Below are positions 8,171 through 28,374 of a stretch of 64,000 bases of DNA, one piece after another. Numbering within the stretch: the stretch's first letter is position 1; the number at the start of each line of letters is the position of its first letter. The position numbers and the translations under genes were made by a program. The notes beneath the pieces are model-generated. The model did no database searches and had not been told where the DNA came from. It was given only the letters and a program-made list of their open reading frames with translations. Source of the stretch: an uncultured Croceitalea sp. (GTDB taxonomy: Bacteria; Bacteroidota; Bacteroidia; Flavobacteriales; Flavobacteriaceae). The stretch is from positions 620,001 to 684,000 of the forward strand of contig CANLXH010000002.1 in assembly GCA_947495075.1 (NCBI GenBank), in the 5' to 3' direction.

Positions 8171-9523
8171 TTAATATGCTTTTTCCTCACCAGCAATACC
8201 ATTAAGTATTGTTTGAAAAATAATTTTTAAATCTAATAGAAAAGACCAGTTCTCTACATAGAAAATATCAAACTTAATCCTGTTTTGAATATCGCTGTCT
8301 TTTTCAATTTCTCCGCGATAACCTCTCACCTGCGCCAGTCCAGTAATTCCTGGTTTTACAAAATGTCGCAACATGTATTTATCTACTTTATTTGCATATT
8401 CGTCTGTATGCTTTAACATGTGCGGTCTTGGCCCTACAACAGACATGTTTCCAAAAAGCACGTTATAGAATTGAGGAAGTTCATCAATACTAGTTCGTCT
8501 AATAAACTTGCCTATTTTAGTAACTCGCATATCATTTTTGCTTGCCTGAACGTTATCTGCATCCTTGTTCACAGCCATTGAACGAAATTTAAAGCATTGA
8601 AATTCTCTATTATCAAATCCTGTTCTCTTCTGAATAAAAAAGATTGGTCCCTTTGACTCTAATCGGATTAATAATGCCAACAATGGTGCAAACCAAATTA
8701 AAATTCCAAAAAACACAAAAAGTGAAAATAAAACATCAAAAGCTCTTTTAACAAATGCATTTATTGGGTTATGAACTGGTATATCTCGTAAAGAAAGTAT
8801 TGGCAAATAATCATAATATTCAAACTTTAATTTTTTGGAAAATATGTTCTTATTGTCTGGCAGAAATTTTAGCGTTTTAAGATTATTATCTGCAAAGTTG
8901 ATAAAGGCACTTATTTGAGTATTCGTAAGCTCTGATATGGAACAATAGATTTCATCTACATTATTTTTTACTATAAACCGAAAACAATCCATCATATTAA
9001 ATTCGTCTGTTTTAGGAGAAAATTGTCTTTTAAAATCATATCCATATTCAGTTCTTTCCGTAAAGACATTTATAAGTTGTTGCGTTTTTTTATTGTCTCC
9101 AATCACCACTACATTTCTAATATTGCCTTTTACCTTCTCTCTGTATTTCATTAAGAGGTAATAGCTGATAAACTTTAAAACAAATACTGCCACGAAAACA
9201 AAAGCGATGTATTTTGCTAGGGCCAGTCTACTCATATTTGGCTGCTTAAAAAACCCAATGAAAGCGTAAACAACTAGTCCATAAAAAAAGAACTGTCTAA
9301 AAATGAGTTTTAAAATATGAGTGACTTTTGTGTAGCGATAGATGACATAAAAATCTAAAGTAAAAGCAATAAATATCCAAGCTAAAGAAATGTAGGTGTG
9401 AAATAAAACTACCTCAATTATGTTTATTGGAAGTAAATAAGCTAGATAGTTAATAATTACAAGATCTAGCCCATAAGAGAAAGGGGTGATAAATCCAGAA
9501 TATCTGCCTTGTCTAAAAAACAT
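8171..9523 (-). CDS. Undecaprenyl-phosphate sugar phosphotransferase (WcaJ/PssY type)
   Basis: Polyisoprenyl-phosphate hexose-1-phosphate transferase that would start each polysaccharide repeat on the lipid carrier in the inner membrane. The N-terminal half has about four membrane segments and a Rossmann-like soluble region (about 130-235, [10 protein letters not shown]). The C-terminal bacterial sugar-transferase domain (about 257-450) starts with KRAFDVLFS and a membrane hairpin, then has the hallmarks [17 protein letters not shown] and MSVVGPRPH, and ends in [10 protein letters not shown] plus [11 protein letters not shown]. Length 450 fits the long PNPT family. It lies nine bases upstream of the UXS-like gene. 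The sugar (often glucose or galactose) is not predictable here. Confidence 0.9.
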
Positions 9524-9600
9524 ATTTTTAATTTAAAGCCTAAATATAAGTTTAATAGATTAGTTTCTTAAATGACGATGTTTCCTTTACAAGTATCTAT

Positions 9601-10701
9601 CTATTTACCTAGTTTAGAAGTTAAACATTTTTGCAAGTACTCTTCATACTTATTATTAATATGATCCCAATTTAGTTCTTGTTTTATTTTTTTTAAATTA
9701 TTTCCAATAAAGGAACTATATTTTTCTTTTTGCCTTTCAAGACAATTAACAATATCTTCTGAATTCTTAAAGTATAATGCGTCATCTCCAAGTACGCCTT
9801 TATTGAATTTGTTGTCATTCGCTATAATGAAGCAATTAGATGCCATTGCTTCTAGAAGTGAAGGGTTTGTCCCTCCTACTGAATGCCCATGAAAATAACG
9901 GTTAGAATAATATCTTAAATTATTTAAGTAATTTAAGTTGTATATGCCTCCTAAAAATCTAACATTCTTATTTGATTTAAACTTATCTTTTAAGTATTCT
10001 CCAAATTTAGTCTCATGTTTTCCTATTACTAAGAAGGGGCTTTTGTTTTTTTGATGAACAATACCATCAAGTATTACCTCTATATTGTTTTCAGGTTCTA
10101 ACCTTGCAATTAGAATGTCGTACTCATATTTTTCTACATCATATTTTTTTAAGATTTTTATGTCTGGCTTTTCAAAAAGCTCGGCACCATAAGCAATATA
10201 TTCAGAGTTTTTATTGTATTTTTCTTTGAGATATTCTTTAATGCCTATAGAATCAGAAACTAGAAAATCACTGGTTTTAATGGCTAAGCGCTCTGCAATC
10301 TTAAGAAAGCCTTTTACAGGTTTGGAATATTTGCTCCTTTTCCATTCAAGGCCATCCATATTAGTTACAATTACAGGTTTTTTTGGTAGTAACCATCCCC
10401 AAATCGAACTGCTGGTGTATCCTAGCTGTAAAATCACATCGAAATTTCTTTTTCTGGTGTCCATAATACAATATAAATCATAAATGAACTGCCCAGGTGT
10501 GCCTATACGGTCCTCAGGATCAATGCAATGTACAATGTTTACACCATTCCAAACCTTTTCTTGATAGGGATGAATATGAGAGTTATATACAAAAACCTCA
10601 TGGTCTTTACTTACTAAGTATTTAGAGAGATATTCTGCACATTGTTCAAACCCACCATGATTATTGGGTATGCCCCTTGTGCCTATTATAGCTATTTTCA
10701 T
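9601..10701 (-). CDS. Glycosyltransferase with DUF1972 N-terminal domain (GT4)
   Basis: Retaining GT-B glycosyltransferase whose N-terminal domain is of the DUF1972 type, seen in rhamnosyl- and related transferases of polysaccharide clusters. It begins MKIAIIGTRGIPNNHGGFEQ, with GTRGIP and GGFE as signature, and continues with VTNMDGLEWKRSKY. The GT4 C-domain has the GTNPSLLEAMAS donor-site stretch (about 279-290). Length 366. The first 41 bases overlap the end of the upstream ligase-like gene, an unusually long coding overlap within this operon. A rhamnosyltransferase role would match the rml genes in the same run but is inference. Confidence 0.85.
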   Translation of the reverse strand: MKIAIIGTRGIPNNHGGFEQCAEYLSKYLVSKDHEVFVYNSHIHPYQEKVWNGVNIVHCIDPEDRIGTPGQFIYDLYCIMDTRKRNFDVILQLGYTSSSIWGWLLPKKPVIVTNMDGLEWKRSKYSKPVKGFLKIAERLAIKTSDFLVSDSIGIKEYLKEKYNKNSEYIAYGAELFEKPDIKILKKYDVEKYEYDILIARLEPENNIEVILDGIVHQKNKSPFLVIGKHETKFGEYLKDKFKSNKNVRFLGGIYNLNYLNNLRYYSNRYFHGHSVGGTNPSLLEAMASNCFIIANDNKFNKGVLGDDALYFKNSEDIVNCLERQKEKYSSFIGNNLKKIKQELNWDHINNKYEEYLQKCLTSKLGK

Positions 10702-11953
10702 TCTTATATAAAATTAGAAACAATGTATTTAAGAAGATAAAAATCACTATCCCTTTATTTCTCGAAAGAAGACATTCAAAAAGAAAAATGATAGAAATCA
10801 ATATTAGAAAAAATAAATGTAATTGGTTTTTGTTCAAAATAGCCAAGCGAGCACTGTAATAAATGTATGCGCAAAAAAATAGAAAAACAAAAATTCCATA
10901 AGTCACTAAATATTGGAGGTATTGATTATGAAGGTTATATCCCTCAAACCAGCCAGGAGCCAGACCGTAAAGCATATAATAATAGTCAATATGATTTTGT
11001 ACATCTCCAATACCATAACCAAAAATTAATTTGCTGTCATCGATTACATGGAACGTCCCCATTTTGAACATTAAATATCGAAGTTCTAAATCGCTAACAT
11101 TTGACTTTTCATAATTGTCAAAAACTACAGCTTCTTCTACTTTATTAGTTGGTGAAAATTCAGAAATATCAAAATGTAGGCCTTGTAGAAATCTATCTGC
11201 TAGTTTTGGTGTTTTAACTACCACAAAACTTATTAGCAATATACTTGTAAACATTGCAGCTCTATAAGTCAAACTCCTAAAAACTCTATATAACTGAACA
11301 CAGTATAACATCGCAAAACAAAAAATGACAGCTTTTGATGCACAAAGAAAAAGTGCAAAAATGGAGAATGCCAGAACTAATACTATTATGAAACGCTTTT
11401 TTGATCTATAATCCTCCCTTATTAAATATTCATCAGTAATAAATAAGGTAGTAATACATAAATTTATAGCCATATACACTGGATGCAAATCAAAAAAACT
11501 ACCCAATTCATGAAAAAAAAGAACCTCAATACCTTCACCGTTGAAAATCCGAGTAATGCCAATAAAGACCAATATTAGCGTGCATACTAAAGTCGAAAGT
11601 GAAAATACTTTTAATGTTGATCTTATATTAATTTGTTTTGTCGAATTAATTACAATTAATGTCAAAACTATTAGTGGAAATAACATGTTTTTTTCAACTT
11701 GCTTTAGACCAGAGGCAACATCTTTGCTATAAAAAGTACTTGCCAGCACGATTAAAAAAAAACCCATAGGGAACACAAATTTAAATGACATTCCTTCTTT
11801 AAAAAGTTTGCCTTTTGAAATTATTAGCAAATATAGAGTGTACAAAAATCCTATGATAAGTGATATATTCCCAAGCTTTATGGTAAATGGTATGCCAATG
11901 GACATTAAAGCTAAAATCAAATCAGAAATTGAAATGTTTTTATTGGAATTCAT
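10661..11953 (-). CDS. O-antigen ligase/polymerase-like membrane protein (Wzy_C family)
   Basis: A polytopic inner-membrane protein of 430 residues with about ten or more membrane segments and a large periplasmic loop at about 225-330 that contains FGYGIGDVQNHI and GYNLHNQYLQYLVTYG. The HNQYL-type loop motif is typical of O-antigen ligase (WaaL) and Wzy proteins, which join or polymerise lipid-linked glycans in the periplasm. The longest frame starts with TTG at 11956; the ATG at 11953 is used here. It lies eight bases after the upstream glycosyltransferase and overlaps the next gene by 41 bases. Ligase and polymerase cannot be told apart by sequence. Confidence 0.8.
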   Translation of the reverse strand: MNSNKNISISDLILALMSIGIPFTIKLGNISLIIGFLYTLYLLIISKGKLFKEGMSFKFVFPMGFFLIVLASTFYSKDVASGLKQVEKNMLFPLIVLTLIVINSTKQINIRSTLKVFSLSTLVCTLILVFIGITRIFNGEGIEVLFFHELGSFFDLHPVYMAINLCITTLFITDEYLIREDYRSKKRFIIVLVLAFSIFALFLCASKAVIFCFAMLYCVQLYRVFRSLTYRAAMFTSILLISFVVVKTPKLADRFLQGLHFDISEFSPTNKVEEAVVFDNYEKSNVSDLELRYLMFKMGTFHVIDDSKLIFGYGIGDVQNHIDYYYMLYGLAPGWFEGYNLHNQYLQYLVTYGIFVFLFFCAYIYYSARLAILNKNQLHLFFLILISIIFLFECLLSRNKGIVIFIFLNTLFLILYKNENSYNRHKGHTQ

Positions 11954-11961
11954 CAAAAGCT

Positions 11962-13161: not shown

Positions 13162-14847
13162 TTACATGGTAAGCATGTACCGCTCCACCCTGCAAGAAAT
13201 GACAACTTGGGGCTTATACAAATCTATGAGATTTTCGTTATAGATTTCATTTACGTATACAACCTCTGTAAAGTGTAACGAAATGAACTGCACGAGCTGT
13301 GTAGTAAAAGAATCTCTAAAAATCAACACTCTCATATTTTTAGAGGCTTTAGGGTTTCGCGTAACAATAGAACCTGGAGGAAAACGCGAATCAGGAATCA
13401 CCGCAAAATTAAAATCTTCATCCTTAAGATTATATTTTGGCATCAACTCATTATAGCCCCATATTTGGTCGACCCCCATTTGCTTGGTCAAATCCCCACT
13501 TCTTACATTTTTATATATAATATTGAACTTATCTTTATGAAAGGGTGTTAAACCCAAAATTGAAGATGTCTGTTCACAAAAGGCCTTATAGCCAATATAA
13601 GCACCATCAGAATTCCAATGTGTATCAAATTTTCTATAAAGTAGTTTGTCCTTTGCTTGTTCTAACAACGGTTTCCTCACATCAAAAAACTGCTCTTCCT
13701 TGGTGTTAAAATAAGTTATTATCTGATCTGCTAAGCTTTTAGTTCCAACTATCTGCTTGGTCATACTTGCGGGTAGTTTCCCCTTATAAATTGTATGCTT
13801 GTTAGGCCAGAATCCTTTTATATATTTTATGTTTTTCTTAGCCAAGGAATCTTTTCTAGCTCTAAACATTCTATAGTAACTAGCAAGATCATTTGCTGAG
13901 ATACGATTATTGTTCGTATAACTCGCATAAACTTCATCTTCAAGCGCGTTATAGAACAGAAAGTTGTCATGACCGAACTGAGCCAATTCCGGTTTAGGAG
14001 AGGACCTGAAAATATTGGTTTTGATTTGACCTGCTAAGGCTATCATTTGTGGTCTGAGCCCAAAATTATCATTGTAATACGTCTCGAATTTTTTTGGAAA
14101 TTCGATTAATGACCCCATACTTGGCCATTTGGATAATTCTCTTTTTTCCAAGTTGCTTTGTTCGAATTGTATTCCTGCAAATTGAACAAACAACGGTGAT
14201 ACAATAATGGTTAGAAATAGTATAGAAAAATAACTCGCTCTTGCTGGTTGTATGGAGTAAAGCAAAGTAAGGATAATAGCTAAGGTAAGAACTAGCGAAA
14301 ATAAATAGACCCATTTGTCTGCTATCATCCTTGCGGGAAATCTTAATTTATCAAGTCTTGAGCCGAGGTTAACGTCTGAAACCAGAAATGGATCATATCT
14401 GCCATCCTTCTCCTTTGTGAAATAGGTGTTCTTATCTTTAACGGTATAAATATTTGGTTTGAAAATGCTATCTATACGGTCTGTTAAAATAATTTTACCT
14501 GTCTCAGAGGAAAACGAAATTGTTTCGATTTTAATGGGAAGTTGTTTTTTATTTGCGCCAATATCTACTCTAATTCTATTTATTTTTTTGCCAATTGGAA
14601 TAGTAAAGTGCAAATTTTGTATTTCGTTACTTCCTTTTATTCTTAAGTAGGAGCTGTTATCATCACTCCAATTTTTAATGCCTTCTTGCAAGTAATAGAC
14701 GTAAAAAATATCATCCTTTGGCACATTGGCCTTTACTTCTACAAGTATTTTTGTAGGCTCCACCTGCTGGCTTTTAAGAAAATTAACAGTTAGATAAAAA
14801 CATAATGCTCCTATCCCAAACGACATAACATTTTTCAGAATTTTCAA
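13162..14847 (-). CDS. AlgX/AlgJ-like SGNH O-acetyltransferase with extra N-terminal domain
   Basis: Membrane-anchored periplasmic protein likely to move acetyl groups onto the polysaccharide, working with the adjacent MBOAT protein as AlgJ/AlgX work with AlgI. Order of parts: membrane anchor (about 8-25), a beta-rich domain (about 32-170) with PNIY (131-134) and YDPFL (151-155), two membrane segments (about 180-199 and 205-224), then an SGNH-like domain (about 250-561). Catalytic candidates are Asp408 and His410 in FDTHWN and Ser513 in FRDSF, where GDS is more usual. The start is TTG, overlapping the MBOAT stop as TTGA; an ATG 21 bases downstream would remove the basic residues before the anchor. 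The N-terminal domain is duplicated as a free lipoprotein at 21819-22322. Confidence 0.8.
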   Translation of the reverse strand: MKILKNVMSFGIGALCFYLTVNFLKSQQVEPTKILVEVKANVPKDDIFYVYYLQEGIKNWSDDNSSYLRIKGSNEIQNLHFTIPIGKKINRIRVDIGANKKQLPIKIETISFSSETGKIILTDRIDSIFKPNIYTVKDKNTYFTKEKDGRYDPFLVSDVNLGSRLDKLRFPARMIADKWVYLFSLVLTLAIILTLLYSIQPARASYFSILFLTIIVSPLFVQFAGIQFEQSNLEKRELSKWPSMGSLIEFPKKFETYYNDNFGLRPQMIALAGQIKTNIFRSSPKPELAQFGHDNFLFYNALEDEVYASYTNNNRISANDLASYYRMFRARKDSLAKKNIKYIKGFWPNKHTIYKGKLPASMTKQIVGTKSLADQIITYFNTKEEQFFDVRKPLLEQAKDKLLYRKFDTHWNSDGAYIGYKAFCEQTSSILGLTPFHKDKFNIIYKNVRSGDLTKQMGVDQIWGYNELMPKYNLKDEDFNFAVIPDSRFPPGSIVTRNPKASKNMRVLIFRDSFTTQLVQFISLHFTEVVYVNEIYNENLIDLYKPQVVISCRVERYMLTM

Positions 14848-16250
14848 AACCTAAAATAAATAAATGGGTTATACGTCGATTGGGCAAGTTCCATAATGGT
14901 AAAAATAAAGAATATCAAATAAAACGCATCTCGAAAGAATGTATTGAAAATGCCCATCTTGATTATACCATTATATTTATTAGAAATTAGTTTTCTAATT
15001 GGGGTAGCCAGGATAAAGCCTACCAGTATAACTATAGTACTATAGCTATCCATATACATTAGTGGAGAATAGTCGGTGCCTTTTGTAAAAGAGAACATTT
15101 TCCTTAAAAAAAGTAACGCTTGTGAAAAATCCTCGATTCTAAAAAACACCCATCCTATAAGTACTATGAACAATAAATAAATGTGTTTAATAAAGTCTAA
15201 ATTTTTGGGAATCCTAATTTTAATGTTTCGCTCCAACAAAAGAAATAATCCATGAAAAAGACCCCAAATAACAAAGTTCCAGCTAGCACCATGCCATAAT
15301 CCCGTAATAAAAAAAACAATAATTAGATTCAGGTAAGTCCTTAATTGTCCCTTTCTGTTCCCGCCTAATGGTATATAAAGATAATCCCTAAACCAAGTGG
15401 ACAGAGAAATATGCCATCTTCTCCAAAAATCCTGAATTGATTTGGCGACGTAGGGATAATTGAAGTTTTCCTTGAAGTTAAACCCCAGCATTTTGCCTAG
15501 TCCAATAGCCATATCGGAGTAACCAGAAAAATCAAAATAAATTTGAAGAGAATAACAGATAATCCCAAGCCATGCAACAGGAGTAGAAATATCGTCCGGA
15601 GCTATATTAAAGATTTTATCCCCTATAAGAGCGGATGTGTTAGCAATAATTACCTTTTTGCCCAATCCCCTTATAAATCTTCTTATTCCTTCTTTAAATA
15701 ATACTTTGGAAATTCTTCTCTCTATAATTTCCTTCTGTATATCAATATACCTAACAATAGGGCCCGCAATCAATTGTGGAAATAGAGAAATATACAGTCC
15801 TAAATGTATTAGGTTTTTCTGTGCCTTAACCTCTTTCCTATACACGTCTATTAAGTAAGAAATATTTTGAAAAGTAAAAAAAGAAACTCCTATTGGCAAT
15901 GCGACTTCTTTCAAATCCCAACCAATATCCATATTAATATTGTTCAAATTTTCTAAAATAAAATTAGCGTACTTAAAGTAAATAAGGATAGATAGATTTA
16001 TCGTAATTCCAATGGTTAGTACTAGGGTAGATATCCGTTTATTAACAATTTTCTGAATTAGTAAACCAACTAAATAATTTACACAAATGGAAGCAATCAT
16101 TAAAATTACTAAGTACTGCTCTCCCCAAGCATAGAAAAATAGACTGCTGAACAGCAAAAAAAGATTACGAACGTTTTTCTTTAACAGGAAATTTCCAATT
16201 ATGACAAAGGGTAGGAAAACAAAAAGAAAAATCGTTGAACTAAAAACCAT
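14844..16250 (-). CDS. MBOAT O-acyltransferase (AlgI-like)
   Basis: Polytopic membrane-bound O-acyltransferase of 468 residues with about eleven membrane segments. Its role in AlgI-type systems is to pass acetyl groups across the inner membrane to a periplasmic transferase. The family core FWRRWHISLSTWFRDYLYIP (275-294) and the proposed catalytic histidine His320 in GLWHGASWNF are intact, as is GLFHG (330-334). It is directly followed by the AlgX/AlgJ-like gene with a four-base TTGA overlap, so the two are probably made together. The alginate genes themselves are absent; the polymer acetylated is the one made by this cluster. Confidence 0.93.
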   Translation of the reverse strand: MVFSSTIFLFVFLPFVIIGNFLLKKNVRNLFLLFSSLFFYAWGEQYLVILMIASICVNYLVGLLIQKIVNKRISTLVLTIGITINLSILIYFKYANFILENLNNINMDIGWDLKEVALPIGVSFFTFQNISYLIDVYRKEVKAQKNLIHLGLYISLFPQLIAGPIVRYIDIQKEIIERRISKVLFKEGIRRFIRGLGKKVIIANTSALIGDKIFNIAPDDISTPVAWLGIICYSLQIYFDFSGYSDMAIGLGKMLGFNFKENFNYPYVAKSIQDFWRRWHISLSTWFRDYLYIPLGGNRKGQLRTYLNLIIVFFITGLWHGASWNFVIWGLFHGLFLLLERNIKIRIPKNLDFIKHIYLLFIVLIGWVFFRIEDFSQALLFLRKMFSFTKGTDYSPLMYMDSYSTIVILVGFILATPIRKLISNKYNGIIKMGIFNTFFRDAFYLIFFIFTIMELAQSTYNPFIYFRF

Positions 16251-16290: not shown

Positions 16291-17523
16291 TTAAGTTGTA
16301 GTCTTATTTGTAATAGTCTTACGATTAAATAGGGTAACCAAAGTAAACATAATTGCAATATCGGACAATATGGTTGTGTAAACTGCATATATCAAAAAGA
16401 GTCCCAATGCAAAAATATAAGGAATCCCTGGCTCTATGTTCAAATAACGTGTAAGAAATACTATATAGAACAAAACTATTAAAAGGCCTAACAACCCTAG
16501 GTCATAATACGTCCAAATGAGTTGCGTAAAGTGTCTCGTCTGGGTAAACTTTCCTGTACGGATATCAAAATAGGAATAGGGTCCATCTCCCAAGTATTTA
16601 GTTTTTATTTTCTTTGCGGCGACCAGAATAATCTGAAAACGTTTTGCCGTACCCAATTCATAGAATTTCTCTGCACTCTCCAGTGAGAATTGCCTTTCCA
16701 AAGTGCCTCCAAGCTTGTTTTGGATAAACTGCTTTTCTCTTAAACTATAACCTGCTAAAATAATTGATCCAGTTAAAGCGAGAACGCTTATCTTAAAAAT
16801 AAGTGTCCCCTTATATTTCTTATAAATTGGTATAATTACAAATGTGGATATTAGAATCACCACAAACAACTTGGAAATATTAGACTCCGTTAGAAATAAC
16901 GTCGCTACCAGATATAACAAAGCCAATTTGGGAAATCTAATAATACCTTTTACATTATTTTCCCGAAATAAAATTATAGCGATGATTAGCAATAGGAATA
17001 CCCCAAGGGAATGGTCTGACTTAATAAAAAAACTGCCGAACATGAAATCAAACCATTCTATGGTTTGACCGCTATTATTAAATTGTATCAAAAAAGAGAA
17101 GAAATACTTCTGCACCAACATAATAGGCAGCTGAAATAAAGCTATTTGATAAAAGATTTTTAGTATCTTCTCATGGGAAATATAGTTTTCCTTATAATTT
17201 ATATAACTAAACAAATAAACCCCTAGAGGCAACAAAGGAAATATAAGATACGTCAAGGTCAACACTAAGGGGCTTTGCTTTAAAACAGCGGTGCCGAGCA
17301 CTACCCCAATATAAAATATTGCTACAAGTACTATCCTATTGAATACCACTTTTTGCCTAAAAATTGCATAAAACATATAGACAAAAAATAATAAGCCTGT
17401 CAAAAAAAAAGTGAGGATGGTGTTGGAAACACCTAGTAAGAATTGTAATAAACCTCCAAATATAAAAACGGTTCCTAAAATAAGACAAAAGACTAATTGG
17501 TATATATTTTTAAAATTTTTCAA
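16291..17523 (-). CDS. Polysaccharide polymerase-like membrane protein (Wzy candidate)
   Basis: A 410-residue polytopic protein with about eleven membrane segments and one long extracytoplasmic loop at about 255-330 (ERQFSLESAEKFYELGTAKR, then YLGDGPYSYFDI). Topology and position, between glycosyltransferase and O-acetylation genes, fit a Wzy-type polymerase; Wzy proteins share little sequence, so this rests on topology. The start is TTG, forming a TTGA overlap with the stop of the WecF-like gene; the next Met is residue 50, which would delete the first membrane segment, so TTG is strongly favoured. The window also has a second ligase/polymerase-like gene at 10661-11953. Confidence 0.6.
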   Translation of the reverse strand: MKNFKNIYQLVFCLILGTVFIFGGLLQFLLGVSNTILTFFLTGLLFFVYMFYAIFRQKVVFNRIVLVAIFYIGVVLGTAVLKQSPLVLTLTYLIFPLLPLGVYLFSYINYKENYISHEKILKIFYQIALFQLPIMLVQKYFFSFLIQFNNSGQTIEWFDFMFGSFFIKSDHSLGVFLLLIIAIILFRENNVKGIIRFPKLALLYLVATLFLTESNISKLFVVILISTFVIIPIYKKYKGTLIFKISVLALTGSIILAGYSLREKQFIQNKLGGTLERQFSLESAEKFYELGTAKRFQIILVAAKKIKTKYLGDGPYSYFDIRTGKFTQTRHFTQLIWTYYDLGLLGLLIVLFYIVFLTRYLNIEPGIPYIFALGLFLIYAVYTTILSDIAIMFTLVTLFNRKTITNKTTT

Positions 17524-18632
17524 TCTGAAGTTTTATCGTGAATTCTCATAATATCCCGCGCACCTTCTAAAATATTTTCGGCACCCCAATGCTCACGCAC
17601 CTTTTCTTTATTCATCTTTTTCTCCTCTAAATTAAGCTCTAACCCTGCCAAAGCCGTATCCTTGTCCAAATCAAAGACTATAAAATTAAGTTGTTTTAGA
17701 TAAGAGTATAAAGGACTTTTATTGTTTAGAAAAACACGCATTCCGCCAAAAAGGGCAAGCAAAATATTACCTAATCCCTGCTGTCTAATATGATACATAA
17801 TCATTGTATTACAAGAAAACACTAATTCAATGTAAGCGTCAAAAGTCATAAAATCTTTAATAGGTATAAATCTATTTTCAAAAATTTCATGGCCTTTCCT
17901 TTCTATTTCTTTTGCGTAGTTCATGTCCCCATAATTTAGCGGTACGATAACCCTAACTTTATTTTTTATTTTATGAAAGATATCTAAATGATTATTGGGT
18001 GGTGTAGCAGAATTACCTATTAGAATATCCTTGCCTAAGACAATTTCATTATCATTTAAAAGTACTGGTGTAAGACTGTCATAACTAAATTTAATAGGCT
18101 CTACATGTAATTTAAACTCGTTTTTAATAACTTCAAACTCGGGTGGTATAACCGTTGCAAGATAATTTAGGTTATTTAATGCTTTTCTCTCCTTGTTTAT
18201 AGTAGAAACGCCATATTTTAAATAATGAAAAGCATTGTATAGAAAACTTTTCTTTAAAAATGTTTTAAAACTATTTCTTAAAACCCTTTTAGTAAGTTCT
18301 TCATATTGCTGAAACGAACCAAAATAGTCATAAGCATCTTTACCCCAAACCATCCAAACGACTTTAACATGTTGTGGTTTGCGTTTTAATAAATGAGTTT
18401 TAATAGGTGTTAAATAGTGAATTGCCAATACGTCGCAATTGTCATATATCGTATCAAGGTCTAGTTTCCGGTAATTATTTGGGAGGATTTCAATTAGCTT
18501 AAGGTTTTTGGGATGTTTTAACTCTTTCGAATTTGAAAAAACTATATATTTATTTTTCCCTGCCCCTACAGTCTCAAAGGTTTCAATTGTACTATCAACA
18601 AATTTTTCGTCATCAAACAAATGAACTATCAT
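17520..18632 (-). CDS. WecF-like 4-acetamido-4,6-dideoxyhexosyltransferase (GT56)
   Basis: Recognised as a member of the family of TDP-Fuc4NAc:lipid II Fuc4NAc transferase (WecF/RffT), the enzyme that adds Fuc4NAc in enterobacterial common antigen. Supporting stretches are the N-terminal MIVHLFDDEKFVDSTIETFE, VWMVWGKDAYDYFG, ILIGNSATPPNNHLDIF (donor domain) and IPIKDFMTFDAYIELVFSCN with MIMYHIRQQGLGNILLAL near the C-terminus. Length 370 fits. It sits directly after the acetyltransferase and aminotransferase genes that could make the donor, and overlaps the next gene by four bases. The exact sugar (Fuc4NAc, Qui4NAc or similar) is inferred, not shown. Confidence 0.8.
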   Translation of the reverse strand: MIVHLFDDEKFVDSTIETFETVGAGKNKYIVFSNSKELKHPKNLKLIEILPNNYRKLDLDTIYDNCDVLAIHYLTPIKTHLLKRKPQHVKVVWMVWGKDAYDYFGSFQQYEELTKRVLRNSFKTFLKKSFLYNAFHYLKYGVSTINKERKALNNLNYLATVIPPEFEVIKNEFKLHVEPIKFSYDSLTPVLLNDNEIVLGKDILIGNSATPPNNHLDIFHKIKNKVRVIVPLNYGDMNYAKEIERKGHEIFENRFIPIKDFMTFDAYIELVFSCNTMIMYHIRQQGLGNILLALFGGMRVFLNNKSPLYSYLKQLNFIVFDLDKDTALAGLELNLEEKKMNKEKVREHWGAENILEGARDIMRIHDKTSD

Positions 18633-18643
18633 TTAAATAAGTT

Positions 18644-19288
18644 TTATTTCTTATGATTTAGAGTCTTGATTGCCTTTGCAGGTATTCCGACAACCACAGT
18701 GTTGTCCGGTACATCTTTAGTTACAACAGCTCCTGCTCCAATAACTGCATTCTGTCCGATTTTTATATCTGGCAATATTGTCGCACTTGTACCTACAAAG
18801 GTAAAATCCCCAATTTCACAGTTGCCAGATATATTTACATTAGGACAAAGCTCTACAAATTTGCCAATAGTACAATCATGACCAATAGTGACATTAAGAT
18901 TTACTAAGCATCCTTCTTTAATTATAACATCGTTTGTGATTACCACCCCGGAACCAATATTACAGCCTTTGTTAATTACGTTCCCATAATGTCCAATATC
19001 TGAATTTGGACTTATTGTAGAGCACAAATCACCTCCTAATTTGGTGAATTTAGAACAAACAATGTTTCTCAGTCTAGGGTTCCCTATCCCTATGGTAAAT
19101 TCATTTCCATTTTCAATAAAGTATTCCTTAACTCCTTCAATACTCTTTAATATTGGAAATTTATCAAATACCAATCCTCGTACCTCATCATTAACATCAT
19201 CATAAAATGCAAGATTATTTATTGAATTATTTTGATGTAATATTTCAAGTATTTCTTTTGCTAACCCCTTTGCTCCGATTATTATCAT
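18644..19288 (-). CDS. Sugar N/O-acetyltransferase, PglD/NeuD-type left-handed beta-helix
   Basis: A 214-residue acetyl-CoA-dependent acyltransferase. The N-terminal Rossmann-like part (MIIIGAKGLAKEI) binds the nucleotide sugar in PglD relatives, and residues about 90-205 are a hexapeptide-repeat left-handed beta-helix (IGSGVVI, IKEGCLV, IGKFVEL, IGDFTFV, IGQNAVIGAGAVVT). His137 in TIGHD matches the catalytic base of PglD. It overlaps the aminotransferase gene by four bases (ATGA), so the two are very likely one pathway unit: transamination of a dTDP-4-keto sugar, then N-acetylation. This would replace the GNAT-type WecD of enterobacteria. Confidence 0.87.
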   Translation of the reverse strand: MIIIGAKGLAKEILEILHQNNSINNLAFYDDVNDEVRGLVFDKFPILKSIEGVKEYFIENGNEFTIGIGNPRLRNIVCSKFTKLGGDLCSTISPNSDIGHYGNVINKGCNIGSGVVITNDVIIKEGCLVNLNVTIGHDCTIGKFVELCPNVNISGNCEIGDFTFVGTSATILPDIKIGQNAVIGAGAVVTKDVPDNTVVVGIPAKAIKTLNHKK

Positions 19289-20358
19289 AATTCTCTGTTT
19301 ATAATTTCACATATACTTTTTAAATTCTTTTTACTCAAGCCTACAAAAAGTGGCAAACATAAAATTCTAGAAGCAACACTCTCGGATATAGGCATATTTT
19401 CACCTTCTAAATAACAAATTCTGTTTAATGATGGATAAAAATATCTTCTAGGAAAAATATTATTGTTATTCAACATTTGTTTGACCTTAAGCATCAATTT
19501 TTCATTTTCAAAAATGATAGGGAAATAGCTGTAGTTCCATTCTGTATGTTCCCTGATTTTAATGCTCTTTAGATTTTGAAAATTTAAATTTTCTTGATAA
19601 TAATCGCATATCACCTTACGAGCTTCTATGATTTCATGCATATAAGGCAAAACCGCTAAGCCCATTGCTGCTTGAAGCTCAGAAATTTTCGCGTTAATTC
19701 CTAACCCATGAAATTTTTCAGGACCATCATGCCCAAAATTGTGACTATAAAACAATTTATGGTTAAGTTCTTTGTTATTGGTAAATACAGCTCCGCCTTC
19801 CCCTGTATGAAATAACTTAGTGGCGTGAAAACTACACGTGCTTACATCCCCATAATTAAAAATCGATTCCCCTTTGTATTTGACCCCAAAACAATGCGCC
19901 GCATCATAGATAATACTCAATTTATAATTATTAGCTATTTCTTTAATTATTTCAACATTACATGGATTACCAAAAACGTGAGTCGCCAAAATAGCCTTGG
20001 TGTTGTTGGTTATAGCGGCTTCTATCTTGTTTTCATCAATTGTTAGGCGTTCTGAATCTATATCTACAAATACCGGAGTAGATCTGTCCCAAAGAATAGC
20101 AGCTGTAGTAGCTACGTAGCTAAAAGGTGTTGTAATTACTTCTCCTTGATTAGCCAATAAGCGCAATGCCATTTGAATTGGAACGGTGCCATTGTTAGTG
20201 ATAATTATATTTTCTATACCTAGAAATGTTATGAGTTCCCTCTCCAAGGTCTGTACTAATTCTCCACGATTGGTTAACCATTCCTTATCAAATGCTCTTT
20301 TAACAAAAGCATTATATTCTTCAATAGGCGGTAAAAAAGTTTTTGTAACATTTATCAT
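19285..20358 (-). CDS. DegT/DnrJ/EryC1-family sugar aminotransferase (WecE/FdtB-like)
   Basis: PLP-dependent aminotransferase that converts a nucleotide-linked keto sugar to an amino sugar. Lys181 in SFHATKLFHTGEGG is the PLP lysine, Asp152 in YDAAHCFG the pyridine-nitrogen partner, and TTPFSYVATTAAI the cofactor/substrate loop. Length 357. The likely substrate is dTDP-4-keto-6-deoxyglucose from the rmlB product of the same operon, giving dTDP-Fuc4N or dTDP-Qui4N; the family alone does not fix stereochemistry. Its ATG overlaps the flippase stop by one base (TAATG) and its stop overlaps the acetyltransferase start. Confidence 0.9.
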   Translation of the reverse strand: MINVTKTFLPPIEEYNAFVKRAFDKEWLTNRGELVQTLERELITFLGIENIIITNNGTVPIQMALRLLANQGEVITTPFSYVATTAAILWDRSTPVFVDIDSERLTIDENKIEAAITNNTKAILATHVFGNPCNVEIIKEIANNYKLSIIYDAAHCFGVKYKGESIFNYGDVSTCSFHATKLFHTGEGGAVFTNNKELNHKLFYSHNFGHDGPEKFHGLGINAKISELQAAMGLAVLPYMHEIIEARKVICDYYQENLNFQNLKSIKIREHTEWNYSYFPIIFENEKLMLKVKQMLNNNNIFPRRYFYPSLNRICYLEGENMPISESVASRILCLPLFVGLSKKNLKSICEIINREL

Positions 20359-21797
20359 TAAGGCCGTCTGTTTCTAATTAATTGGGTTATATAGCTCAAA
20401 GCTTTCATTTTAAAAATATAGCTAATTCCTAAATAGATAGAAAAACCAAAAAACATTGTAATTAAAATTTTGTAAAAGTCTGAATCCACAACAAGATAAT
20501 AGTTTAATAGCTTTAACATGAAATATAAAACAACTGCGACAATTAGTGTTGGGGACAAATCCAAAACCTGACTTCTAACTGAGTAATCGATAATTCTTGC
20601 GCTATAGTAGCCGTTTATAATTATAGCTCCAAAAGAGGCTAAAACACTAGACCATAGCAAACCATAAATGCCAAAAATGAAACCTATAGATACGCACAAT
20701 AGAATAAATACTTTTTTAATAATTTCTAACCTTAAAAAAAGATCAGTTCTGCCAAATACTTTTAAAATATTTAAATTGAATACATTAATGGGGTAAAAGA
20801 TGGCCCCAATGCTTAAAATCTGAAAATAGGGTACGGCGGGTAACCACTCTGGTCCCAATATTAAATTAAAAATTGGTTTTGAACATGCAACAACTAAAAC
20901 CATTACACCGGAGGTAATAAAAAAAGTAGTTCTAAATATTTTGCGATACACTTCTTCTATTTTTTTTGAATCTTCTCTGATTAATGTTAACATTGGATAT
21001 GTTACCTTACTTATTATTCCAGAAAATATACTAACTGGCTGGTTACTAAAAGCTGAAGCCCTTTCATAGTATCCTAAAGCTTTAAGCGGGAAAAACTTTC
21101 CAATTAGAATGTTATATATATTGTTGAAACTTACATTCAAAATCGCAGAAATTAACAACTTGTAACCAAAATTGAAATGGTAGCTGACTTTTGTAAAATT
21201 AATTTTTAAAATAGGTCTCCATTTTGAAAATATCCATAACATTAAAGACTGGAATCCCTGTGTAACTAAATACATAACGACAATGCTCCAAACCCCATAA
21301 TCATTATAAGCCATTACAACACCTATTAAAGATCCTATTATAGATCCTGGCACGTTTAAGACTGTAAGCTTTTTAAACCTTAGTTCCTTTATTAGAATAG
21401 CCGTCTGGACCGAAGAAAATCCTGAAAATATAAGACACATGCTATATGCCTGTATTAAGTAAATCAATCTAGGTTGTTCATAAAAATGAGCTATGAAAGG
21501 TGCTGTAAAAAAAAGTAAAGAATATATTAATAAACATATTAAAATATTCATAAAAAAAACCGACGAGTAATCATCTTCTTCCAAGCTATCTGACCTTATT
21601 AAAGATTCTGACAGACCACTATCAACTAATGCGAGCCCAATTGCAATAAACAATGCCATCATCCCTACTAATCCAAATTCCTCAGGACCAACTAGTTTTG
21701 CTAAATAAATTGAAGTTACAAATGCAAGACCCCTTATCATCAATACATCTAAAGACATCCACATAAAACCTTTAAGAGTTCTCCTTTTCAACGACAT
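20358..21797 (-). CDS. Wzx-type polysaccharide flippase (MOP superfamily)
   Basis: A 479-residue inner-membrane protein with twelve to fourteen predicted membrane segments, of the WzxC/polysaccharide-transporter branch. The N-terminus SLKRRTLKGFMWMSLDVL, the KLVGPEEFGLVGMMALF segment (about 34-50) and the motif KALGYYERASAFSNQPVSIF in the middle are characteristic of this branch. It would move lipid-linked repeat units from the cytoplasmic to the periplasmic side. Position between the rml genes and the amino-sugar genes supports that role. No Wza/Wzc export genes accompany it. Confidence 0.92.
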   Translation of the reverse strand: MSLKRRTLKGFMWMSLDVLMIRGLAFVTSIYLAKLVGPEEFGLVGMMALFIAIGLALVDSGLSESLIRSDSLEEDDYSSVFFMNILICLLIYSLLFFTAPFIAHFYEQPRLIYLIQAYSMCLIFSGFSSVQTAILIKELRFKKLTVLNVPGSIIGSLIGVVMAYNDYGVWSIVVMYLVTQGFQSLMLWIFSKWRPILKINFTKVSYHFNFGYKLLISAILNVSFNNIYNILIGKFFPLKALGYYERASAFSNQPVSIFSGIISKVTYPMLTLIREDSKKIEEVYRKIFRTTFFITSGVMVLVVACSKPIFNLILGPEWLPAVPYFQILSIGAIFYPINVFNLNILKVFGRTDLFLRLEIIKKVFILLCVSIGFIFGIYGLLWSSVLASFGAIIINGYYSARIIDYSVRSQVLDLSPTLIVAVVLYFMLKLLNYYLVVDSDFYKILITMFFGFSIYLGISYIFKMKALSYITQLIRNRRP

Positions 21798-21818: not shown

Positions 21819-22322
21819 TCAGAAATCAATTTGTATTTTTTTATGCAAAAGTGCTGTAGATTCTAAGAAAGGGTCGTATCTATTATCTAAGTTTTTTCTT
21901 TCGAAACCATTTTCTGATTTTATAGCATAAATATTGGGTGAGAAAAAACGATGTATTGATTTTTCATTTATGTCAATTGAATCTCTTGTTGTTCCTATTA
22001 TTATGGAGGTAATAGAAATAGGAGTTTCATGCTTATCCTCTCCCAAGTCAATTCTCAGCTTTTTAGGGATTTGATTGAGAATTATCTCAATGCTTTGTAC
22101 TTCTATAGATCCTTTAACTTTGGTCTCTATCATATTATCTTCACTATAGGTGTTGCTATGTTCTGGGATATAATAAAATTTAATTCTATCGTCCTCTAAC
22201 AATCTAAACATGATTTTTATGGTCAGCTCCTGACTAGTTTTAGTCATATCATTGCATCCTAAAAGAAAACAACATATGAGTAAAAGCCAATGAGATTTTA
22301 TGTTTACAGTTTTTCCATGCAT
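21819..22322 (-). CDS. Lipoprotein with the same domain as the AlgX-like protein's N-terminus
   Basis: A 167-residue predicted lipoprotein: hydrophobic segment at 11-22 followed by the lipobox LLGC with Cys23. The remaining roughly 140 residues match the periplasmic N-terminal domain of the AlgX/AlgJ-like protein encoded about 7 kb away in the same run. Both have RIDLGE / RVDIGA, then PI-I-I, FSPNIY / FKPNIY and NRYDPFL / GRYDPFL, with exactly 20 residues between PNIY and YDPFL in each. No SGNH domain follows, so it is a single-domain relative. It overlaps rmlD by 19 bases. Function unknown; a beta-sandwich carbohydrate-binding or partner-binding module of the acetylation complex is an inference. 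Confidence 0.75.
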   Translation of the reverse strand: MHGKTVNIKSHWLLLICCFLLGCNDMTKTSQELTIKIMFRLLEDDRIKFYYIPEHSNTYSEDNMIETKVKGSIEVQSIEIILNQIPKKLRIDLGEDKHETPISITSIIIGTTRDSIDINEKSIHRFFSPNIYAIKSENGFERKNLDNRYDPFLESTALLHKKIQIDF

Positions 22323-23155
22323 TTAGATAAACTTTGTCTCCATTCTTTAATAGGTTTTTTCAATAAGTTCTGGGCCTTAATTGTATTCATTACAGAATAT
22401 TGAGGCCTCAACGCTTTTACTTTATAGTCTATAGACGCAATGGGATAAACGACCGTATTGTTATTTGAGTACGCTATAATCGCCGTTGCAAAATCAAACC
22501 AACTTATATTTCCTCGGTTGCTAAAATGGTAGATCCCAAAATCCTTGGAATCTTTATGCACCAGTGCTATAATGAATTCTGCTAAATCCCTAGCGTATGT
22601 GGGAGATCCATATTGGTCTGAAATAACATCTAAGCGCTCCTTTTGTGCTCCTAATCTTAGCATTGTTTTTACAAAGTTGTTTCCGTATTCAGAATATACC
22701 CATGAGGTGCGCACTATAAAATACGAATCTAAATATTCTTTTATGTAATTTTCACCTTTCAATTTAGACAATCCATAAACATTCAACGGATTTGGTTCAT
22801 CGGTTTCTATATATGGCTCAATTTTTTTGCCATCGAACACGAAATCTGTTGAAACATGTATTAGAATACAACGATGTTTCGCACAAGTCTTTGCCAATAT
22901 TTGAACTGCCTCGGCATTGATTTTATAGCATGATTCTATTTCTGTTTCTGCTCTATCTACAGCAGTGTAAGCTGCACAGTTAATACAGTAGTCGAAATCA
23001 GTGTTATTGAAAAAAGCAGTAACCTTGTTTTCATTTGTGATATCCAATTGTTCGGAATCCGTAAAAACAAATTTATGGATGTTAGAATCTTTAACTAATT
23101 CTTGAATGGAACTACCTAGCTGCCCTTTTGCTCCGGTAACTAATATGCTCTTCAA
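22304..23155 (-). CDS. rfbD: dTDP-4-dehydrorhamnose reductase
   Basis: RmlD, last step of dTDP-L-rhamnose synthesis: NAD(P)H reduction of dTDP-4-keto-L-rhamnose. The Rossmann loop GAKGQLG (8-14), STDFVFDG (102-109) and the YGLSK catalytic pair (Tyr127, Lys131) are intact; length 283 is normal. The start is TTG, overlapping the rmlC stop as TTGA. No ATG lies upstream of the NAD-binding loop, which begins at residue 7, so TTG must be the start. The end overlaps the lipoprotein gene by 19 bases. Confidence 0.96.
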   Translation of the reverse strand: MKSILVTGAKGQLGSSIQELVKDSNIHKFVFTDSEQLDITNENKVTAFFNNTDFDYCINCAAYTAVDRAETEIESCYKINAEAVQILAKTCAKHRCILIHVSTDFVFDGKKIEPYIETDEPNPLNVYGLSKLKGENYIKEYLDSYFIVRTSWVYSEYGNNFVKTMLRLGAQKERLDVISDQYGSPTYARDLAEFIIALVHKDSKDFGIYHFSNRGNISWFDFATAIIAYSNNNTVVYPIASIDYKVKALRPQYSVMNTIKAQNLLKKPIKEWRQSLSKCMEKL

Positions 23156-23697
23156 TATTTTGCGTTTTTAAACGATGGGAGCTCTAAGTCCTTGGACGAT
23201 AAAATAATTTCATCCTTTGGAATTTTCCAATTTATGTTTAGTTCCTCATCATTATATATAATACCTGCCTCAGCATCTTTATTATAATAGTTATCACATT
23301 TATAGAAAAATTCTGCCGTTTGGGAAAGCGTTATGAAACCATGTGCAAAACCTCTAGGAATAAACAGTTGTTTTTTATTCTTATCACTAAGTTCCACAAC
23401 TACGTGTTCTCCAAAGGTCGAAGATTCTTTTCTTAAATCTACGGCTACATCCAAAACAACACCACTTAGTACACGAACTAATTTTGCCTGAGCATGTGTG
23501 CCTATTTGATAATGTAGTGCGCGAACTACGCCTTTTACGGAAAAAGATTGATTATCTTGAACAAAATTTATCGTCTTTTTAATTCCTTTGTTGAATCTTT
23601 CATTATTAAAAGATTCCAAAAAATACCCCCTTTCATCATTGAAAATGTTTGGTTCAAGTATAAAACAGCCCGCGAGCTTGGTTTCGATAAAATTCAT
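23152..23697 (-). CDS. rfbC: dTDP-4-dehydrorhamnose 3,5-epimerase
   Basis: RmlC, the cupin-fold epimerase acting at C3 and C5 of dTDP-4-keto-6-deoxyglucose. The catalytic histidine is His62 in VVRALHYQ; DVAVDLR (83-89) and PRGFAHGF (114-121) are the other family hallmarks. Length 181 is typical. It begins immediately after the rmlA stop codon and its own stop overlaps the rmlD start (TTGA). Confidence 0.97.
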   Translation of the reverse strand: MNFIETKLAGCFILEPNIFNDERGYFLESFNNERFNKGIKKTINFVQDNQSFSVKGVVRALHYQIGTHAQAKLVRVLSGVVLDVAVDLRKESSTFGEHVVVELSDKNKKQLFIPRGFAHGFITLSQTAEFFYKCDNYYNKDAEAGIIYNDEELNINWKIPKDEIILSSKDLELPSFKNAKY

Positions 23698-24564
23698 CTA
23701 TTTCTTCTTTAAAATGCCCAATAAGTTTTTACCGTAACCACTTTTCATTAAAGGTTCAGCAAGTTTTTTAAATTGGTTTTTATCTATATATCCCATTTCG
23801 AAGGCAGCGCCTTCTATTGCGCCAATTTTAAGTCCTTGGCGTTCTTCAATTACCTCAACAAACTGGGATGCCTGCATTAAAGATTGGAATGTACCTGTAT
23901 CTAGCCAAGCAGTACCTCTGTCTAAAATACTAACGTTTAGTTTTTGTCTTTCAAGATAGACTTTGTTAACATCAGTGATTTCTATTTCTCCTCTATGACT
24001 TGGCGAAATGTTTTTTGCAATTTCTATAACATTATTATCGTAAAAGTAAATTCCTGGAACTGCATAATTGGATTTTGGTTGTTCTGGTTTCTCTTCAATA
24101 CTTATTGCCTTTCCCTCTTCATTAAACTCTACTACTCCATATCTTTCGGGGTCATGAACTCTATAAGCATAGATAATTCCTCCATCTGGGTCATTATTTG
24201 ACTGCAATAACTTAGCAAGACCTGAACCGTAAAATATATTATCACCAAGAATTAAGGCCACCTTGTCATCTCCGATAAATTCTTCACCAATTATAAAAGC
24301 TTCGGCCAATCCATTAGGCGCCTCTTGAACAGCATATGAAAAACTACATCCGTATTTCTCACCATCACCTAATAAATCTTTAAATAATGGTAAATCTTTT
24401 GGAGTTGAAATAATCAAAATCTCTTTAATGCCAGCGTACATTAAGGTTGATAAAGGGTAATAAATCATTGGTTTATCATAAATAGGCATCAATTGCTTAC
24501 TTACCGACAAAGTGAGTGGGTGGAGTCTAGTTCCCGAGCCTCCAGCTAATATTATTCCTTTCAT
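23698..24564 (-). CDS. rfbA: Glucose-1-phosphate thymidylyltransferase
   Basis: RmlA, which makes dTDP-glucose from dTTP and glucose 1-phosphate and is the entry enzyme for both the rhamnose branch and the presumed amino-sugar branch. The nucleotide-binding signature GGSGTRL (8-14), [18 protein letters not shown] and LGDNIFYG are present; length 288 is standard. It lies 13 bases downstream of rmlB and abuts rmlC. Confidence 0.98.
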
Positions 24565-24577
24565 TTTTTATATGAAT

Positions 24578-25621
24578 TTATGAATACATTTTGTTGTAAT
24601 ACTCTTGATAGGCGCCAGAAGTAACACGTGACAACCATTCTTTGTTTTGTAGAAACCAGTCAACGGTTCTTTCTAATCCTTGCTCAAAAGTAACAGATGG
24701 ATACCAACCTAATTCTTTGTTTATTTTATTAGCATCAATTGCATATCTTAAATCGTGACCTGGACGATCCTTTACATATTCTATTAATTTCTCTGAGGAT
24801 CCAGCTGGCTTCCCAAGTTTCCCATCCATAATTTGACAAAGTAATTGTACCAATTCAATATTCTGCCATTCATTAAATCCTCCAATATTATAGGTTTCGT
24901 GGTTTTTCCCTTTATGAAAAACTAAATCTATGGCAGCTGCATGGTCTTCAACAAATAACCAATCACGCGTATACTTTCCATCACCATAAACAGGAAGGGA
25001 TTTCCCTTCAATAATGTTGTTTATAAAAAGGGGAATCAATTTCTCAGGAAAATGATTGGGTCCGTAATTGTTAGAGCAATTTGATATAACGTAAGGCAAA
25101 TTATATGTTTCGCCATAGGCCCTTACAAAATGATCAGAACTGGCTTTTGAGGCAGAATAAGGGGAATTAGGGTCGTAGGGAGTGGTTTCTGTAAAAAGTC
25201 CTGTTTGACCTAAGCTTCCATAAACCTCGTCAGTGCTGACATGATAAAACTTTTTACCATCCTTATCATCTTTCCAAAATTCTTTTGCTGCATTTAAAAG
25301 GTTGACCGTTCCTATAATATTGGTTTTAACAAAAGCTAGTGGGTCTTTTATAGAACGGTCTACATGGGATTCCGCTGCTAAATGAATAACCCCATCAAAA
25401 CGATACTCTTTAAATATTTCACAAACAGATGCTTCATCTACGATATCTCCTTTTAAAAATTTATAATTAGCAGCTTTCTCTATATCTTTAAGGTTTTCTA
25501 GATTGCCTGCATAAGTAAGCGCATCTAAATTGTAAATGTTGTAACTGGGATAAGTGTTTACAAATCTCCTAACTACATGAGAGCCTATAAATCCTGCGCC
25601 GCCCGTTATTAAAATGTTCAT
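24578..25621 (-). CDS. rfbB: dTDP-glucose 4,6-dehydratase
   Basis: RmlB, converting dTDP-glucose to dTDP-4-keto-6-deoxyglucose, the branch point for dTDP-rhamnose and 4-amino-4,6-dideoxy sugars. TGGAGFIGSH (6-15) binds NAD; Thr130, Asp131 and Glu132 in VSTDEVYG plus Tyr155 and Lys159 in YSASK form the active site. Length 347 is normal. It follows the Wzz-like gene by 24 bases. Confidence 0.98.
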   Translation of the reverse strand: MNILITGGAGFIGSHVVRRFVNTYPSYNIYNLDALTYAGNLENLKDIEKAANYKFLKGDIVDEASVCEIFKEYRFDGVIHLAAESHVDRSIKDPLAFVKTNIIGTVNLLNAAKEFWKDDKDGKKFYHVSTDEVYGSLGQTGLFTETTPYDPNSPYSASKASSDHFVRAYGETYNLPYVISNCSNNYGPNHFPEKLIPLFINNIIEGKSLPVYGDGKYTRDWLFVEDHAAAIDLVFHKGKNHETYNIGGFNEWQNIELVQLLCQIMDGKLGKPAGSSEKLIEYVKDRPGHDLRYAIDANKINKELGWYPSVTFEQGLERTVDWFLQNKEWLSRVTSGAYQEYYNKMYS

Positions 25622-25645: not shown

Positions 25646-26626
25646 CTATTGATTTATTTCAGCTGCTTTAGTATTTAGGTATTTTATGGTTGAAATCAAA
25701 AAGAAAATTCCCAACAACACTAATGGAACTAAAACTAAACTTTGTCCAAAAACTGATTTTTGGACAACTTGCGTTTTTCCAAAATTAATCACCTTAATTG
25801 GGTCGGTTTGTTTTTGTAGCTCTATGTTTTTAGCCTCAATATCCTTAATCAAATCATTTTTTAAATTGAATAAGCCAGTAATATTAAGCTTCTCTTGATT
25901 GTCCAGAACTATGCGCTGATTACCTGATAATTCGTCTTCTTGAACCATTTTTTTAGAATAGTTGGCAATTAAGTTATCTACTTGCTTTAAAAGTATTTTA
26001 TTTTCTTCTATTCTACTTTCCGCATTTGTTTTGTAAATAGCTGTCAATCCTTCAAAATATTCATTAGTATTTAAGTAATCAATAATAGCTTTTGCAAAGC
26101 TTTGCCCAAAAGCCGAGTCCTCATAGCAAAAGGTAACTCTATGATTAAAAGAGCTTTTGTTTTGCAATTCTGCCCTTAAAATATCTGAAATTGCTTCTGT
26201 ATTTTCAAAGCTTTGTAATAATTCTAGATACTTAGTATCATTTTCAGAATTGGAACTTCCCTCTACTCGACTAATTTGAACTTTTAAACCTCTGAAATCT
26301 ATATTCTCGATACCAATACTCTTAAAAAATGTAGTGTCTTTTGCCTTTATGTTTGCTTGTATCTCATCAACTACATCATATAAATAGTTTTTACTTTCCA
26401 AATTTGGCCTAACTATTACCTCCGTTTTAAGTTGTTTAGAGCTAATTTTATTAAGTCCATACCCCAATGCCAAGCCAATTATTATTAGTCCTCCCAGTAT
26501 AAATATGTTCTTCTTCAAATAAAGAAAAACTCTAAGAAAACTGTTGAAAATATTTTTTAATCCATTTCCTATAAGGTGAAACAATTGTCCCAAATCTATC
26601 TCTTCAGAATTGTTATTATCTGCCAT
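25646..26626 (-). CDS. Wzz-like chain-length determinant protein
   Basis: A 326-residue inner-membrane protein with the architecture of polysaccharide co-polymerases: cytoplasmic N-terminus, membrane segment at about 40-60, a long periplasmic helical region (about 65-290) rich in coiled coil, and a second membrane segment at about 297-317. No Walker motif or tyrosine-rich tail follows, so it is a PCP-1-like or related protein and not a BY-kinase. It would set glycan chain length with the Wzy protein. It is two bases from the stop of the DUF6909 gene and 24 bases before rmlB. Confidence 0.75.
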   Translation of the reverse strand: MADNNNSEEIDLGQLFHLIGNGLKNIFNSFLRVFLYLKKNIFILGGLIIIGLALGYGLNKISSKQLKTEVIVRPNLESKNYLYDVVDEIQANIKAKDTTFFKSIGIENIDFRGLKVQISRVEGSSNSENDTKYLELLQSFENTEAISDILRAELQNKSSFNHRVTFCYEDSAFGQSFAKAIIDYLNTNEYFEGLTAIYKTNAESRIEENKILLKQVDNLIANYSKKMVQEDELSGNQRIVLDNQEKLNITGLFNLKNDLIKDIEAKNIELQKQTDPIKVINFGKTQVVQKSVFGQSLVLVPLVLLGIFFLISTIKYLNTKAAEINQ

Positions 26627-28314: not shown

Positions 28315-28327
28315 ATAGTGTTCTTTG

Positions 28328-28335
28328 CAAAAGTA
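28328..28335 (-). promoter_or_regulatory. TAnnTTTG promoter box before the polysaccharide run
   Basis: TACTTTTG on the minus strand, 13 bases upstream of the ATG at 28314. It is the only clear -7-type element ahead of the 21-kb co-directional run, which has hardly any gaps, so it may drive the whole set. A -33 element is not obvious. Confidence 0.4.
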
Positions 28336-28374
28336 CATGGAAATTCCTTGAAAAGTAAATTGGGTGATTAGGTT

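Follow-up and report, generated by a model that had tools for sequence, protein, structure and literature searches.

Why would one polysaccharide locus encode the same small domain twice, once as a free lipoprotein and once at the front of an O-acetyltransferase? The question is raised by a stretch of 64,000 nucleotides from an uncultured Croceitalea sp. of the family Flavobacteriaceae (hereafter the window; coordinates refer to it unless a region is named), in which a 167-residue lipoprotein resembles the N-terminal part of an AlgX-like protein. To our knowledge, the periplasmic hand-over of such polymers among flippase, polymerase, modifying enzymes and export is poorly understood. A domain that has become part of two kinds of enzyme, an O-acetyltransferase and a polymerase/ligase, and that is also a free lipoprotein whose gene often adjoins a flippase gene, points to a handling step that they share, and offers small soluble units for studying it.

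Judged by its sequence relatives, this domain is a previously unnamed one of about 135 residues, and it is found in three architectures: the free lipoprotein, a fusion to an SGNH O-acetyltransferase and a fusion to a Wzy_C protein. The predicted fold of the free copy is a beta-sandwich, and we propose, with confidence evenly divided, that the domain could be a periplasmic glycan-handling module in the Wzx/Wzy-type surface polysaccharide assembly of Flavobacteriaceae.

Homology of the lipoprotein and the fused domain

The free lipoprotein (21819..22322, minus strand) consists of a signal peptide with a lipobox Cys (preceded by FLLG), a short linker and the domain (residues ~32-163); the listed start of its open reading frame (ORF) shares 19 bases with the end of the upstream rmlD. 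The AlgX-like SGNH O-acetyltransferase (13162..14847, minus strand; 561 residues) carries the domain at its N-terminus (residues ~34-164), followed by two transmembrane segments (181-199 and 208-226, by hydropathy) and the SGNH part, which PF16822 matches over residues 291-462 (E 8e-14; 52.4 bits against a gathering score of 26.5).

The two proteins share 47 of 152 aligned residues in BLASTP (75 bits, E 1e-20), and their local alignment score is 194, whereas shuffled versions of the lipoprotein (n = 2000) average 33 and never exceed 69, and the best score against the 47 other ORFs of the window is 50. PNIY and YDPFL are equally spaced in both, and RIDLG of the one aligns with RVDIG of the other. 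A search of the whole source genome with the lipoprotein domain (E <= 1) returned two matches, the lipoprotein itself and the fused copy (E 2.1e-18). The lipoprotein is thus homologous to the AlgX-like protein in its N-terminal part. A preliminary description of the locus, made from its letters alone, had claimed such a shared domain on the strength of these motifs, and both the domain and the motifs are confirmed here.

Extent of the family and database searches

With the lipoprotein alone as query, matches appeared in 14 of 149 genomes of the family, four of them spurious. These four, the weakest (G035, G061, G005 and G093; E 0.006-0.0099), were dropped as other proteins, judged by eye, or, for G093, for having no domain match; G061 does have a true Wzy_C fusion elsewhere in its genome, recovered by a 12-row profile. 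That profile detected the domain in 51 of 397 genomes of the family. Fifty of the 51, the window's included, were studied together with nine added genomes, which makes 66 proteins in 59 regions; G227, a partial match in a 1302-residue frame, lies outside the studied set, and a sixtieth region (G093) has no domain copy. The regions span about 20 kb with the copy mostly central, and five (L071, L074, L076, L096 and L116) are cut by contig ends, so that absences in them carry little weight. One genus accounts for eight of the nine added genomes, and the 53 free copies described below are therefore not independent.

Known families were searched with the 65 proteins of the alignment (L075 was left out, and only the first of the two domains of L097 was used). 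Nothing significant fell on the domain in Pfam (best E 0.0048, weak scattered matches) or in NCBIfam (best E 0.0043), and PHROGs gave weak scattered matches only (best E 0.0074); identity with a known family was rejected on these grounds. The window lipoprotein had no sequence match in the PDB at E <= 10, the best hit of a PDB profile search (E 0.042) was a 30-residue match to BtSGBP-B, and no close named relatives of the window lipoprotein were found. The earlier proposal, that an unnamed module carrying export signals occurs once fused to the enzyme and once lipid-anchored, agrees with these scans. A viral origin was also considered and rejected, as viral contigs contained no relative of the lipoprotein and BFVD no fold match at E <= 0.001. 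In the literature searched, no title or abstract opening was found that describes such a domain, which does not prove it undescribed; it is not mentioned in the accessible portions of PMC5156936 and PMC6519341.

Beyond the family, 10 of 395 genomes in a sample of the phylum (first profile) and 11 of 296 in a sample of the order were positive, all of them Flavobacteriaceae. A larger profile gave 5 positives among 198 genomes of the phylum; one match outside the family (E 0.0067, partial, with two internal stops) was not counted. All these samples are rich in Flavobacteriaceae, so that restriction of the domain to the family is likely rather than demonstrated. One member, from L111, is identical to a Flavobacterium record, and it matches seven Flavobacterium loci and one 'Flavobacteriaceae bacterium'.

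Three architectures

Fifty-three of the 66 proteins are free, with lengths of 164-222 residues except for that of L097 (358 residues), and 13 are long. The exception (L097:9356-10432) is a lipoprotein that contains a tandem pair of the domain.

Ten of the 13 long proteins can be aligned along their length with the SGNH protein of the window, at 27-37% identity. In these ten, the Asp-x-His and Asp-Ser motifs (D408, H410, D512 and S513), which we take to be catalytic, are invariant, PF16822 is also matched by three of the further fusions, and an MBOAT gene adjoins all ten (PF03062 in the window, an MBOAT profile elsewhere). In PF16822 match, motifs and adjacent MBOAT gene they are like AlgX/AlgJ-type proteins, from which the window's fusion differs by the extra N-terminal domain and the transmembrane segments that follow it. 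AlgX-family proteins without the domain exist, as the preliminary description had supposed: 11 of the 15 PF16822 proteins in the 149 genomes lack it.

The other three long proteins (L089 13450-15189, L098 and L075) are Wzy_C O-antigen ligases/polymerases and not acetyltransferases, with PF04932 scores of 38.1, 55.3 and 32.3 bits against a gathering score of 31.7. The original 12-row profile, built without any of the three, matches their N-termini with an hhalign probability of 98.3 (E 2.1e-14). They differ from other PF04932 proteins by an N-terminal extension in which hydrophobic segments flank the domain. Hydropathy was examined in six fusions, and in five of them the domain follows an N-terminal hydrophobic segment and precedes the second; in the window's SGNH protein the first such segment falls under the threshold used. 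In one genome (G247, region L089), about 10 kb separate an SGNH fusion from a Wzy_C fusion, and in L098 the Wzy_C fusion (8498-10222) directly adjoins an MBOAT gene.

Genomic setting of the free copies

Free copies recur after dTDP-sugar genes, a Wzz-like gene or a sulfate-activation block, and what follows them is a flippase or the glycosyltransferase part of the locus. The stretch around each of the 53 (mostly about 10 kb on each side) contains rml, Wzz-like or flippase genes, and for 51 of them it includes a flippase gene. The flippase is the next gene for 23 of 53 free copies against 26 of 830 other genes of the same regions (49/883 pooled); counted by genus, it is next in 15 of 40. The next gene is co-directional in 52 of 53 cases, at a median gap of 22 bases.

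Fold and export

For the mature part of the lipoprotein, structure prediction gave the beta-sandwich, and the top solved structures by Z score were CBM36/CBM60 modules (8.7 over 104 residues and 8.3 over 98). The predicted fold of the free copy resembles both, yet the identity is 6-7%, and CBM36/60 does not appear among the 25 of 43 weak Pfam families listed for the 65 members, one of which touches CBM65_1 at E 0.012. CBM36/60 modules are known from plant-polysaccharide hydrolases, whereas the present domain sits on assembly proteins. We do not claim membership of the CBM36/60 fold.

A lipobox-like cysteine is found in 53 of 53 free copies (lenient pattern). According to the available text of PMC5080379, an acidic export signal directly after this Cys marks the surface lipoproteins of Bacteroidota. 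With a loose pattern, it is absent in 51 of the 53 copies, the window's among them (CNDMTKT), and is matched in L109 and L114 only. Because the signal is not seen in these 51, the lipoprotein probably faces the periplasm.

What the domain might do

A common membrane-anchored domain, with signals that would take it across the inner membrane, recurs in loci resembling those of Wzx/Wzy-type polymers, and the enzymes to which it is fused act on such a polymer or its lipid-linked unit; this makes glycan binding and presentation, in our view, the most likely function. The ligand would be the lipid-linked repeat unit once flipped, or the chain as it grows. In cis, the domain would present the chain to the O-acetyltransferase or to the polymerase/ligase; in trans, the lipid-anchored form would capture or guide the chain for whichever later enzymes the locus has. 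In the window, where the acetylase has its own copy, the free lipoprotein, whose gene adjoins that of the flippase, might handle the unit or chain more generally. The preliminary description had suggested that the module could hold the polymer: the contexts (polymerase/ligase, O-acetyltransferase and flippase) and the CBM36/60-like predicted fold fit this suggestion, and the binding itself is what we infer from them.

More tentatively, and with rather less confidence than in a glycan-handling module as such, the domain may be an overlooked component of Wzx/Wzy assembly that captures the newly flipped unit or the growing chain and passes it along, either in trans, as a lipoprotein whose gene lies beside that of the flippase, or in cis, as part of the polymerase/ligase or the O-acetyltransferase. 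If so, in cells that possess both forms, such as this one, one copy would serve chain handling and the other acetylation. Its presence in only 51 of 397 genomes would fit an accessory tied to particular polymers better than a factor needed for assembly in general.

The main rival is protein-protein docking, in which the domain would bind the polymerase or the flippase and tether the enzyme or lipoprotein to the assembly complex with no sugar contact. The precedent is AlgF, which, in the part of the published account available (PMC10641220), has two beta-sandwich domains, does not bind polymannuronate and contacts AlgJ and AlgX; like our domain, it is an exported beta-sandwich protein with an SGNH O-acetyltransferase partner. 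The location between hydrophobic segments in the fusions would place the domain near the membrane, and its low conservation (mean column identity 31%) fits partner-specific surfaces. These three points favour docking. On the other side, the same domain occurs with two unrelated enzyme families and in loci that differ widely in their genes, of which the polymer is the common factor. AlgF is two-domained and described for alginate acetylation, whereas members of this family usually have one domain, are lipid-anchored when free and are mostly without a nearby MBOAT gene. Its families are absent from the same 25 of 43 weak Pfam families, which is weak evidence, and AlgF is not among the best 50 structure matches listed, which excludes nothing. 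We regard docking as a serious if somewhat doubtful alternative.

A role as accessory of sulfated-polymer synthesis, the free lipoprotein being paired with PAPS supply and sulfotransferases, is suggested by the neighbours of part of the free copies: a cysN-type gene (a label given to a whole cluster from the scan of one member, which has GTP_EFTU domains) is near 21 of 53 and directly upstream in 16, and a sulfotransferase-type gene is near 21 of 53. APS kinase is also more frequent in genomes with the domain (31 of 51) than in those without it (134 of 346; Fisher p 0.0036, from hand-counted lists and uncorrected for kinship). Yet the stretch lacks a cysN-type gene for 32 of the 53 free copies, a search of the window's own genome for APS kinase gave no match, and sulfotransferases act in the cytoplasm while the lipoprotein lies outside, all of which makes this role improbable. 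Neither MBOAT nor cysN is near 27 of the 53.

Least probable of all, and very unlikely, is a specific recruiter of the O-acetylation complex, the other role put forward at the outset: the MBOAT genes beside all ten SGNH fusions and the four genomes in which free and SGNH-fused copies co-occur speak for it, but just 9 of 53 free copies have an MBOAT gene nearby and Wzy_C proteins carry fused copies as well, so that recruitment is not supported as a general role.

Evolutionary history

In the four genomes with both forms, the matches to the free and SGNH-fused copies start 7.5 kb (window genome), 8.9 kb (G120), 1.7 kb (G240) and 13.4 kb (G377) apart. In a tree of all 67 domains of the 66 proteins, the window's free copy is sister to the free copy of another genome (100/96), and its fused copy falls in a group (98/90) with four further SGNH fusions and a long-branched Wzy_C fusion whose placement is unsure. 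Since each copy groups with those of other genomes, a recent local duplication was rejected; the lipoprotein was at first described as duplicating the fused domain, a word that is not supported in this local sense.

In the midpoint-rooted tree of the SGNH part, ten fused proteins and one bare protein stand opposite ten bare ones across a branch supported at 100/100. This arrangement suggests that the SGNH fusion may have arisen once, with one loss. On the domain tree the SGNH label takes more changes (at least three by starred branches), though the domain is short.

Other genes of the window and of related loci

All genes named here for the window lie on the minus strand where a strand is given. 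Directly downstream of the lipoprotein, at a gap of 21 bases, is a Wzx-type flippase (20358..21797, minus; PF13440, E 1.9e-82), which matches NF058658 at E 3.3e-82, yet under the cut-off of that model. The MBOAT partner of the SGNH protein (14844..16250, minus) matches PF03062 at E 6e-32, and a Wzy_C polymerase/ligase without the domain (10661..11956, minus) matches PF04932 at E 8.1e-11. The product of 16291..17523 (minus) has no Pfam or NCBIfam match; by eye, we take it to be polymerase-like. Next to it are a WecF-like (GT56) glycosyltransferase (17520..18632, minus; PF07429, E 4.2e-16, with the NCBIfam WecF models under cut-off) and two genes (18644..20358, minus) for a NeuD/PglB/VioB-type sugar acetyltransferase (TIGR03570, above cut-off) and a DegT aminotransferase (PF01041). 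Upstream of the lipoprotein are four dTDP-sugar genes, rmlD, rmlC, rmlA and rmlB (22304..25621, minus; PF04321, PF00908, PF00483 and PF16363), of which the names rmlA and rmlB are presumed. The WecF-like transferase, NeuD-type acetyltransferase and DegT aminotransferase (17520-20358) lie near the rml genes. This gene content suggests that the repeat unit of the window's polymer may contain a dTDP-linked acetamido sugar, such as Fuc4NAc. Further upstream, a protein is called Wzz-like from its position and a weak match only (25646..26626, minus; PF02706, E 0.05, under cut-off, and no NCBIfam match), followed at 26629-28338 by a DUF6909 protein (Pfam), whose cluster is present in 30 of the 60 regions, often just upstream of the Wzz-like gene.

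Elsewhere, several labels (cysQ, cysD, DUF2061, GH3, NeuA, NeuB, UGDH, Wzz-like and several gene-cluster names) are ones that we assumed or gave by eye. MBOAT genes adjoin proteins of 474-520 residues without the domain in L073, L078, L088, L102 and L103, which possibly represent another kind of acetylation partner; that of L088 has no Pfam match. In L022, L027, L069, L092, L101 and others, a sulfate-activation block (cysQ-DUF2061-cysC-cysD-cysN, mostly presumed labels) directly precedes the lipoprotein, in part with sulfotransferase-type genes nearby, and such Flavobacteriaceae loci are candidates for the synthesis of sulfated surface polysaccharides.
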